Assembly: GCA_016209385.1 (NCBI GenBank)
Contig: JACQWB010000188.1
Coordinates: forward strand, 1 to 38,475
Source of the DNA: Candidatus Rokuibacteriota bacterium
GTDB lineage: Bacteria; Methylomirabilota; Methylomirabilia; Rokubacteriales; CSP1-6
Length of the DNA: 38,475 bases
Direction: 5' to 3'
Positions 1,065 through 4,154 of this stretch are shown here, piece by piece. A program made the position numbers and the translations under genes. A model generated the notes under the pieces. That model was not told the origin of the DNA and did not search any database. It was given only the letters and a program-made list of their open reading frames with translations. The number at the start of each line of letters is the position of its first letter. The first letter of the stretch is position 1.

Positions 1065-2012
1065 TCAGAGGTACTGGCCGTAGCGGATCTTCTCGACGAC
1101 CTCGCGGATCCGCTTGTAGCCGTCGATCTCCTGGAGCAGGTCCTGGGTGGTGACGAGCCCGGCCTCCTTGCCAGTGCCGGCCAGGTGGACTTTGGTCTCC
1201 AGCGCCCGGCGGATGATCTCGGCGATCTCGGCACCGCTCATCCCGCCCATGGGCGGGAGGACTGAGCGGTAGTCCAGCGCCGCGAACAGCGGCCGCCCCG
1301 CGTTCCGCTCCGTCTGCGCTTTCCTCAGCTCCAGGATCTCTTGCTGGGCCTGGCCCTCGGGCAGCGGGACCTCGATCAGCCGGTCCAGGCGGCCGGGCGC
1401 CACGAGCGAGGGATCGACGGCGTCGGTCCGGTTCGTGGCGGCCACCACCATGACGCCCGAGAACTCAGGAAGCGCGTCGAGCTTCTCGGCCAGGGCTGCC
1501 ACGAGCCGCGCGCTGGCCTCGCGGGCCTGCGGCGGCGGGAGCAGGTGCTCGAGCGAGAGGGCGTCGGCCTCGTCGAGGAAGACCACTGCCCGCCCCTCCT
1601 TGAAGCCGATGGCCAGGATCTCCTGGAGCAGCTCGCCCGTGTTGGGCCCGAACTTGGAGGTGAGGTTCATGAGCTTCAGGTGGTAGAAGATCGCCTCCGA
1701 GGCCGTCGCGAGCGCCTTGGCGAGCAGGGACTTCCCCGTCCCCGGCGGCCCATACAGGAGCACGCCCTTGGGCGGCGTGATTCCCCACTGGCGGTAGAGG
1801 TCCGGGTTGATCAGCGCAGTGGCGAAGCCGCGGAGCGTCGCCTTCGCAGCCCGGAGCCCGCCGATCTCGTCGAACGGCACCCCGGGCCGGGCGTCGACCT
1901 CGGCGCGGCCGGTGAGGTCCCCGAACTTCTCCCCGAGCTTGGTGAAGACATCCTCGAGCCGCCGCTGGATGGCCCACTGCTGCTCGGTGAGCTTGGGCTC
2001 GGGGCTGGCCAT
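1065..2012 (-). CDS. Single-domain AAA ATPase (Cdc48/FtsH-like module)
   Basis: A 315-residue protein with one complete AAA module: Walker A GPPGTGKS at 88-95, Walker B VVFLDEAD at 143-150, sensor-1 ATNR at about 192-195, and the GRLDR arginine-finger region at about 207-211. A C-terminal helical lid (SGAEIAEIIRRALE) follows. The N-terminal ~45 residues are short and partly helical, with no recognisable substrate-binding domain, protease or membrane segment. It probably works as a hexameric unfoldase or remodelling ATPase with an unknown partner. I chose ATG at 2012, two bases past the stop of the upstream BFN gene; a TTG at 2018 overlapping that stop is the alternative. Translational coupling to the BFN protein suggests a shared task, but this is inference. 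Confidence 0.85.
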   Translation of the reverse strand: MASPEPKLTEQQWAIQRRLEDVFTKLGEKFGDLTGRAEVDARPGVPFDEIGGLRAAKATLRGFATALINPDLYRQWGITPPKGVLLYGPPGTGKSLLAKALATASEAIFYHLKLMNLTSKFGPNTGELLQEILAIGFKEGRAVVFLDEADALSLEHLLPPPQAREASARLVAALAEKLDALPEFSGVMVVAATNRTDAVDPSLVAPGRLDRLIEVPLPEGQAQQEILELRKAQTERNAGRPLFAALDYRSVLPPMGGMSGAEIAEIIRRALETKVHLAGTGKEAGLVTTQDLLQEIDGYKRIREVVEKIRYGQYL

Positions 2013-2014
2013 GC

Positions 2015-2548
2015 TCAAAAGTGCGGGGTCGCGCCGGGACGCTGGGGCGTGGTTCCAGCCTTGTCGAAGACCCGGTCCTCGACCAGCACGGGCACCTTGG
2101 CCCGGATCGCGAGCGCGATCGCGTCCGAGGGACGGGAATCGAGGGTCAGCTCGGTCCCGCCCGTGTTGAGGTGGAGCGTGGCGTAATAGATGTCATCGCG
2201 GAGGTCGGTGATGATCACGCGCGCCAGGGTGACCTTGAGGCGGCCGAACAGCGTCAGGAAGAGGTCGTGGGTGAGCGGCCGGGGCGGGGTGATGCCGTGG
2301 AGCGGCAGCGCGATGCCGTTGGCCTCGGCGTGCCCGATCGCCATGGTCAGGTTCCGCTTGTCGCGCTTGCCCTGGAGAACCACGAGGGGCTGGGAGCTGC
2401 GCTGGTCGATGACGACTCCGACCACCTCCGCCTCCTGCGGCCCGGTGGCCTTAGGCGGTGCAACCTCCCCCTTGTCCCGCGCGCCGACTCCCCCGAGAAG
2501 CACCAGCGCGAGGAGCACGTAGAACCCGAGCCGCCGTGCCGTACCCAT
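2015..2548 (-). CDS. Exported BFN-domain (bifunctional nuclease, DUF151) protein
   Basis: A 177-residue protein with a hydrophobic N-terminus (FYVLLALVLLGGVGA, about 9-23) that looks like a signal peptide or membrane anchor, followed by a BFN/DUF151 domain. Family landmarks are VVLQGKRDKRNLTMAIGHAE, PLTHDLF and the C-terminal LDSRPSDAIALAIRAKVPVL block. BFN proteins are known or proposed nucleases acting on DNA and RNA, usually cytoplasmic, so a secretory leader is unusual. The start is ATG at 2548, preceded by a strong GGAGGCGGAGG ribosome-binding site; an in-frame upstream start at 2617 would overlap the promoter. It is the first gene of the AAA-ATPase operon. Confidence 0.8.
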   Translation of the reverse strand: MGTARRLGFYVLLALVLLGGVGARDKGEVAPPKATGPQEAEVVGVVIDQRSSQPLVVLQGKRDKRNLTMAIGHAEANGIALPLHGITPPRPLTHDLFLTLFGRLKVTLARVIITDLRDDIYYATLHLNTGGTELTLDSRPSDAIALAIRAKVPVLVEDRVFDKAGTTPQRPGATPHF

Positions 2549-2593
2549 CCTCCGCCTCCTTGGTGTCCACACCTCGCTCGACGTGTAAGCAAA

Positions 2594-2622
2594 AGTATCG
2601 GCCTGAGGTCGGAGCAAGTCAA
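2594..2622 (-). promoter_or_regulatory. Sigma70-like promoter of the BFN-AAA-thioesterase operon
   Basis: On the minus strand, TTGACT (2617-2622) and GATACT (2594-2599) are separated by exactly 17 bases. The predicted start of transcription is about 40 bases before the BFN ATG at 2548. Confidence 0.6.
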
Positions 2623-2750
2623 GGCGAAGCCGGGAGACGAAGGCTCGCAGCGAAGCCGAGCGCGAGGAGCAGGGTCAACAATAGGCCGCCCCTGCCTTCG
2701 CCGCCACGAACAGGTTGACTTCGGCGGCCCGGCGGTGCGAGGCTGGGAGC

Positions 2751-2903
2751 GTGGAGCACGCGGCACTTCCTCCCCCAGTTCGAGGGACCCCGGCCGACGA
2801 GCGGGTCTACATCTGCGACCGCTGCGGTGCCCGGATGGAGGAGCGCAAGTGCAAGATCGTTTGCGGCGTCTGTGGTTTCTATCGAGACTGTAGCGATCCG
2901 TGA
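2751..2903 (+). CDS. Small zinc-ribbon protein
   Basis: A 50-residue protein with two CxxC knuckles, CDRCG at about 23-27 and CGVCG at about 39-43, plus flanking cysteines in ERKCKIVC and the end motif YRDCSDP. It is a small treble-clef/zinc-ribbon type that likely binds one zinc. I prefer GTG at 2751 because the upstream TTG (2715) lies inside a TTGACT box that may be a -35 element. The stop TGA overlaps the GTG that opens the LAGLIDADG remnant. Function unknown; similar tiny zinc ribbons with a C-terminal CSD motif occur as stand-alone proteins. Confidence 0.6.
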   Translation: MEHAALPPPVRGTPADERVYICDRCGARMEERKCKIVCGVCGFYRDCSDP

Positions 2904-3016
2904 TCACCTCCCCCCAGATCGCCTGGCTTACCGGCCTCCTGGAAGGTGAAGGCAGCTTCCTCATGTCCGAGCGTGCAATTACAATCGCACTCAACATGAC
3001 GCGCACGAACTCCTGA
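2900..3016 (+). pseudogene. LAGLIDADG homing endonuclease, N-terminal remnant
   Basis: A 38-codon ORF starting at GTG 2900, overlapping the upstream stop, and ending at TGA 3014-3016. It encodes PQIAWLTGLLEGEGSF followed by AITIALNMT, the first LAGLIDADG helix (LTGLLEGEG) and the following strand of a homing endonuclease. Intact enzymes continue with a polar segment (typically DxDV) and need at least about 100 more residues. Here the match stops at LNMT, and the DNA passes straight into a response-regulator fragment in another frame. It cannot be active and is best read as debris of a mobile endonuclease gene. Confidence 0.6.
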
Positions 3017-3255
3017 TCGCCGACCGTCGCATCAGGCTCACGCCGCCGGAGTTTGCGGTACTGAGGTGCCTCTGGCAGCACGAGGGGAAGGTCGTCCCGC
3101 GCGCCTCGATGCTCGAGAACGTGTGGGAGTCCGACTACGAGGGCGGCAGCAACGTCGTCGACCTGGTGGTGCGGTCATTGCGGCGAAAACTCGGCGAGCG
3201 GGCCTGGACGGTCGAAACCGTGCGCGGCGCGGGTTACCGGCTGCGCCGGGACTGA
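3001..3255 (+). pseudogene. OmpR/PhoB-type response regulator, C-terminal winged-helix remnant
   Basis: An uninterrupted frame with no credible start codon, ending at TGA 3253-3255. It encodes a nearly complete OmpR-family DNA-binding domain: LLIADRRIRLTPPEFAVLRC, then KVVPRASMLENVWE, the recognition-helix part NVVDLVVRSLRRKLG, and the closing wing WTVETVRGAGYRL. The receiver domain that should precede it is absent. Its place is taken by the LAGLIDADG remnant in a different frame, with the junction close to 2999-3003. The only in-frame ATG (about 3109) lies in the middle of the domain, so no functional product is expected. No histidine kinase partner is nearby. Confidence 0.7.
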
Positions 3256-3314: not shown

Positions 3315-4154
3315 GTGACCTCGATCGAGGATCTCCTCGCTCAGGGCCTCAACGGGGACACGCTCATGCTCCACGCGAGCTTTCAGGGCCTCCCCGGGAT
3401 GGCCCATGGCGGCAGCGTCCTGGCCGCCTTCGACTCTGTCGCGAGCCGCCACGGAGCCGCGACGCCCCGGGAGATCTTCGGCGCGTACCGGCGAAAGGTG
3501 CCGCTCAGCACGCCCCTCCGCCTCGACGCCCGGCAGTCGAGCGCCGGTGCCGGATTCAGCCTCTCGGACGGGAACCAGCTCCTCGTTGACGGATGGGTGC
3601 GGGCGGCCCATCTCCTTCCAGAGCGACCTTCCGTCCCGGGACGCCTGGGCGGCGGGTCTCCGCTGCCGATCTCGAACTCTTGCTTCGCGTGCGGCATCAA
3701 GAACCCGCTCGGGCTCCAGGTGGCGCTCAGGTTCGACGCTGAAGCGGTTTGGGCGGAGTACGTCCCTCGACAGCCGTTCAGCACGGCCGAGAGCCACCTC
3801 GCGACGGCAGCGCTCACGACGCTCCTGGACGAGACCGCCTTCTGGCTCGGCGCCCTCGTCTCGGGCGAGTCGGGCATGACCAGCGAGATCCGCGTGACCC
3901 TCCACCGAACCCCTGTCAAGTTCGGGGAACGGCTGATCGTGATCGGCCGGCGGGAGCGAGTGATCCGGCGACCCGACGATAGCCGCTACTGGGAGACCGA
4001 GGCCGCCGTGCTCGCCGAGGACGGGTCGCTCCTCGCGACGAGCCGGATCACCTTCGTCGCGGTCAGAGGCGCGGCCAAGCGGCTCGTCACCGGCATGCTC
4101 AGCATGAACCCGCCGGAGGTCGTCCGCCGGGTCTTCCCCGCCCACCTGCGCTGA
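3315..4154 (+). CDS. Tandem hot-dog-fold thioesterase-like protein
   Basis: A 279-residue cytoplasmic protein that looks like two hot-dog domains in one chain. The N-terminal half carries QGLPGMAHGGSVLAAFDSVA, typical of the PaaI-like helix region. The second half begins with SNSCFACGIKNPLGLQVALRF (about 121-141), a cysteine-containing opening seen in thioesterase-superfamily proteins, followed by a LLDETAFWLGAL helix and the VTLHRTPVKFGERLIVIG strands. A role in acyl-CoA hydrolysis or acyl-CoA binding is likely, but no substrate is indicated. GTG at 3315 is placed by the start-proximal promoter and lack of a leader. The gene converges on the PHP gene, 12 bases from its end. Confidence 0.7.
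   Translation: MTSIEDLLAQGLNGDTLMLHASFQGLPGMAHGGSVLAAFDSVASRHGAATPREIFGAYRRKVPLSTPLRLDARQSSAGAGFSLSDGNQLLVDGWVRAAHLLPERPSVPGRLGGGSPLPISNSCFACGIKNPLGLQVALRFDAEAVWAEYVPRQPFSTAESHLATAALTTLLDETAFWLGALVSGESGMTSEIRVTLHRTPVKFGERLIVIGRRERVIRRPDDSRYWETEAAVLAEDGSLLATSRITFVAVRGAAKRLVTGMLSMNPPEVVRRVFPAHLR

Follow-up and report, generated by a model that had tools for sequence, protein, structure and literature searches.

Out-of-frame remnants of a LAGLIDADG gene and a winged-helix gene behind a small zinc-ribbon gene in Rokubacteria

Free-standing homing endonuclease genes (HEGs) are chiefly known as phage genes. Goddard and Burt's homing cycle, a succession of invasion, decay and loss, was described for introns and inteins and has been reviewed (PMC1654191), and free-standing HEGs that lie beside conserved genes have been reported in phages (PMC10448857). 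The LAGLIDADG gene described here resembles these systems in its patchy occurrence, a single position being occupied by an intact copy, by a decayed one or by none (PMC1654191, PMC10448857), and it resembles the phage HEGs in adjoining a small conserved gene, no intron having been found (PMC10448857). Unlike the known HEGs, it resides on bacterial chromosomes, encodes a double LAGLIDADG-HTH protein and has as its host gene one for a 35-residue zinc-ribbon protein (ZNR); its copy in the DNA that we analysed is a relic, and homing of the gene is putative. No relevant report of homing endonucleases in Rokubacteria was found in the literature searched. The stages of decay of free-standing HEGs on bacterial chromosomes have seldom been set side by side, and here one family at one site, in little-studied soil bacteria, presents intact, internally deleted, point-mutated, fused and empty states; because this range occurs at one site beside a single-copy gene, target specificity becomes directly testable.

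The window, i.e. the whole stretch of 38,475 bp that was analysed, is contig C188 of a draft genome (G000; 4.57 Mb in 310 contigs, with an estimated contamination of 3%), and it was compared with relatives from 95 genomes of the candidate phylum Rokubacteria, including the genus-mate G001. The features of the locus are collected in Table 1. The gene order in relatives is BFN (minus strand), MFS transporter (minus strand), ZNR where present, and thioesterase (plus strand), and in the synteny comparison the BFN gene is a neighbour of the thioesterase gene throughout the family. In G001, whose thioesterase ortholog is 69% identical, the spacer between the ZNR stop and the thioesterase start is empty and measures 33 bp, while that in the window measures 411 bp and contains both gene fragments discussed below. 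The MFS gene, which in relatives is full (about 400 aa) and lies between BFN and ZNR or thioesterase, has been deleted from the window save for about 30 C-terminal codons, recognized by tblastn at 2634-2711 as a match to residues 397-424 of the G001 protein (61% identity, E 6e-4). Relocation of this gene within the genome was ruled out, as only distant paralogs were detected (best 31%). Loss of the MFS gene, together with the two fragments in the spacer, indicates that the region underwent at least two deletions.

Table 1. Annotated features around the junction of the two gene fragments
Feature	Position in window	Strand	Evidence
BFN (bifunctional-nuclease-domain) gene, left syntenic anchor	2015..2617	-	Pfam BFN_dom, E 1.1e-34
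MFS transporter, C-terminal relic	2619..2711	-	tblastn with the G001 MFS protein
ZNR, intact, stop codon TGA at 2901-2903	2796..2903	+	two CxxC knuckles DERVYICDRCGARMEERKCKIVCGVCGFYRDCSDP
LAGLIDADG fragment, N-terminal 34 residues of a LAGLIDADG protein with two units	2900..3001	+	homology to relatives
Junction, from the final LAGLIDADG-homologous base to the initial winged-helix-homologous base	3001..3008		DNA alignments to G014/G018 and G010
Winged-helix fragment, last 83 codons of a STAND-ATPase/winged-helix gene together with its stop	3004..3255	+	Pfam Trans_reg_C
Thioesterase-like (4HBT) gene, right syntenic anchor	3315..4154	+	Pfam 4HBT, weak, E 0.003

The left-hand fragment was noticed in the first-pass annotation as a 38-codon ORF encoding the first LAGLIDADG helix, and it is found at the place indicated there. 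The ORF (VITSPQIAWLTGLLEGEGSFLMSERAITIALNMTRTNS) starts with a GTG that overlaps the ZNR stop codon, includes the motif helix with its acidic residue (LTGLLEGEG), and runs past its 34 residues of homology to a stop at 3014-3016. Taken alone, this LAGLIDADG piece (39 residues) gave no Pfam match. It does, however, align over 35 residues with the start of ORFs of about 330 codons in G014 and G018, at 60% and 57% identity (E 9e-8 and 5e-7, respectively), and it matches the phage profile phrog_5046 at E 0.0025. With only 34 residues left, the complete alpha-beta-beta-alpha-beta-beta-alpha core is absent from the window. The GC content of the fragment is 55%, against about 70% in its surroundings.

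The intact copies in G014 and G018, which belong to two genera other than that of the window, begin at the ZNR stop and end ahead of the next gene. Their products match Pfam LAGLIDADG_3 above the cut-off and additionally contain HTH domains, the architecture being a tandem of two LAGLIDADG units with an HTH after each, and the acidic residue of the motif (EGEG) is retained in both units. The best phage profile for the full proteins is phrog_5046 (E 5e-34 and 1e-37), which is labelled as an HNH endonuclease and covers a single unit of 161 positions, in contrast to the two-unit tandem of Rokubacteria; relatives were found in 138 phage records, with a best identity of about 35%. In the predicted structure the first unit displays the full alpha-beta-beta-alpha-beta-beta-alpha topology, with pLDDT of about 83-90 over most of its length, and the model as a whole is of modest confidence (mean 67.7). 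Its best matches in the PDB are LAGLIDADG nucleases derived from I-CreI, I-MsoI and I-OnuI (best E 3e-7), with TM-scores that are low because the model leaves it uncertain how the two units are placed relative to each other. Rfam gave no match, and thus no known intron RNA, near either intact or broken copies, and an intron-encoded endonuclease was rejected on this ground. We regard the intact protein as a putative active homing endonuclease.

The adjoining ZNR gene is present in a single copy in 54 of the 95 genomes, and its products are 52-85% identical and share two CxxC knuckles. No Pfam or NCBIfam family matches ZNR above the cut-off, HVO_2523 being the best NCBIfam entry below it. The gene occurs in two genomic settings, either in the slot between MFS and thioesterase, as in the window, or beside the gene UP, and the nuclease gene was found with it in both. 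The orientation of ZNR relative to the thioesterase gene may be either. Directly behind ZNR, the LAGLIDADG gene was found in five of the 54 genomes (two copies intact and three decayed), with one more case doubtful: a sixth occupied site in G074 was set aside, as its profile match (E 0.08) is too weak. Among the decayed copies, that of G006 consists of about 66 bp of the N-terminus, whose DNA stands at z of about 10 versus base-shuffled sequence, joined to residues 252-318 (E 7e-20), while that of G082 is a point-mutated N-terminus in which EGEG has become ESEA (z about 7-8 by the same comparison). A profile scan of the remaining ZNR downstream spacers, a few of them shortened by contig ends and that of G032 entirely, revealed no LAGLIDADG gene, and a search with the full-length profile through the 95 genomes yielded no convincing copy away from ZNR. 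Sites that are empty in congeners are known for three occupied genomes (G035 and G076 for G018, G027 for G006, G001 for G000), and G013 and G027 provide empty sites for the G014-type neighbourhood. Across the family the LAGLIDADG gene goes with the 3' end of a single tiny gene. This association, which the first-pass annotation had no means of seeing, is of more interest than the scar in the window itself.

The right-hand fragment had been described as a near-complete DNA-binding domain of a response regulator lacking a start codon. The domain and the lack of a start stand: the frame 2950-3255 covers positions 2-77 of the 77-position Pfam profile Trans_reg_C (E 1.2e-22, 80.2 bits, cut-off 26.2), and its earliest ATG, GTG or TTG, at 3109, lies within the domain and is of no use as a start codon, so that gene calling based on start codons indeed misses it. 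Its origin, on the other hand, has to be revised. The nearest intact relative, and the only one in the phylum, is found at the C-terminal end of a STAND-ATPase protein of 654 aa encoded on contig C216 of G010, the final 83 residues of which align with the fragment through the stop codon in the DNA alignment, with 69% identity over the domain, whereas other winged-helix proteins of the relatives reach at most about 49%. The G010 protein has an AAA/STAND ATPase region and a middle region, both missing from the window, and is devoid of a receiver domain, none of which was found upstream of the winged helix in the window either. With a STAND-ATPase protein as the best relative, derivation from a response regulator was rejected: the domain family is shared with OmpR/PhoB response regulators and is thus OmpR-type, but the fragment, with no receiver domain and a nearest relative that is no response regulator, does not look like a remnant of one. 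An OmpR-type domain that misses its front half is therefore not necessarily a broken response regulator, and an easy misreading is corrected here. Neither a second copy of the winged helix nor the remainder of the STAND gene was found elsewhere in the window genome; the part that precedes the winged helix in the G010 protein is absent from the other genomes of the set, that of the window included, and the protein was not found in viral contigs. By eye, the middle region of the G010 protein (L077, 3178-5139) appears acetyltransferase-like.

DNA alignments place the end of LAGLIDADG homology at about 3001 and the beginning of winged-helix homology at about 3004-3008. Hence both partners are incomplete at the junction, as had been proposed for 2999-3003, to within a few bases, and homologies that meet within about 8 bp suit a simple end-to-end join. 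Contrary to the claim that the ORF stops exactly where the other frame begins, the two overlap by about a dozen bases. In the relatives the two parts are separate genes, in agreement with the view that unrelated fragments have been joined. A single conserved gene covering the whole stretch was sought in relatives and rejected, since the two parts are read in different frames and occur as a pair in no relative, the G001 spacer containing neither part.

We consider it likely that the locus is dead and consists of two gene remnants, joined out of frame by a deletion between a HEG-type gene and a STAND/winged-helix gene downstream of it. The identity and order of both parts are directly observed. 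Equally observed are the vacancy of the slot in the genus-mate and the gene behind ZNR, intact in two other genera and decayed in two more. According to the proposed history, a free-standing homing-endonuclease-type gene would first have occupied the spacer behind ZNR, its start codon overlapping the ZNR stop, with the STAND-ATPase/winged-helix gene lying just downstream in the same orientation. A single deletion, extending from about codon 35 of the former to a point about 83 codons short of the latter's end, would then have removed the intervening DNA and left the two remnants fused out of frame, probably in the decay phase of the homing cycle, in which an endonuclease gene that has ceased to spread may erode freely. 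In no genome does an intact LAGLIDADG gene stand next to an intact STAND-winged-helix gene, and the arrangement before the deletion is thus one that we infer. Deletions are seen elsewhere too, namely in the upstream MFS gene of the window and, independently, inside the LAGLIDADG gene of G006.

The first-pass annotation took the junction for a clear scar of illegitimate recombination, probably caused by a mobile homing endonuclease. The scar is a true but ordinary one; the endonuclease is a possible cause of the join, which a plain deletion accounts for equally well. A bolder version of the endonuclease explanation, which we find rather doubtful, holds that Rokubacteria possess a family of chromosomal double-LAGLIDADG-HTH homing endonucleases specific for the 3' end of ZNR, spread over at least five genera and two genomic settings, whose cuts drive nearby deletions and rearrangements, including the join in the window and possibly the loss of the MFS gene.

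The mobility of the gene may itself be questioned. It could be an old, non-mobile host gene co-transcribed with ZNR, comparable to the domesticated WhiA regulators, that has been lost many times, the window recording one such loss by deletion. The GTGA overlap between LAGLIDADG start and ZNR stop, which the window shares with G014 and G018, would suit such a gene pair, as would the HTH domains and the appearance of WhiA among the weaker fold matches of the model. So would the divergence of the protein, which between genera is 54-62% identical versus 70-73% for the host ZNR and 66% for UP (three N-termini could be compared); with values this near to those of host genes, recent horizontal homing is not evident, and old vertical presence with repeated loss would fit as well. 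However, genomes of one genus differ in whether they have the gene, clean empty sites lying beside occupied ones, both units keep the acidic residue of EGEG, and many of the relatives are phage proteins; we consider a non-mobile host gene unlikely.

The main mechanistic rival to simple deletion is capture during break repair, in which an endonuclease, resident or incoming, would have cut the DNA at the 3' end of ZNR, the break then being sealed through end joining, rather than homologous repair, with a STAND-winged-helix piece from elsewhere. The join is indeed no more than about 110 bp away from the ZNR 3' end, the site of the gene family, the winged helix has no second copy in the genome, and a Ku gene is present there as two pieces at contig ends. 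A target site is expected in uninterrupted ZNR-spacer DNA, however, and the break point falls within the endonuclease gene; the winged-helix piece ends at a natural stop codon, and G006 has its decay deletions at other points of the LAGLIDADG gene. Capture is accordingly an improbable alternative to the deletion favoured above. A chimeric assembly might be suspected from the nature of the genome, a metagenome-assembled draft of 310 contigs with its 3% of estimated contamination, but is highly improbable, as it would require two false joins around a 250-bp piece at a locus where both flanks (BFN on the left, thioesterase on the right) are syntenic with many relatives and the LAGLIDADG fragment has precisely the attachment to ZNR seen in G014 and G018.

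Two minor observations were made in the course of these comparisons. In each of the two species of the genus, Ku is found as two pieces at the ends of different contigs (C176 and C183 in G000, C292 and C273 in G001; L145-L148). Given this position, an assembly break is indicated and truly split genes were rejected; the G000 pieces share an 85-bp overlap of 89% identity, which possibly reflects the presence of two Ku genes, or else mixed strains at the assembly break. In a different genus, G007 has an ORF resembling a formylglycine-generating enzyme between ZNR and thioesterase (L060, about 1630-2526, minus strand), a second insertion in the spacer between these genes.
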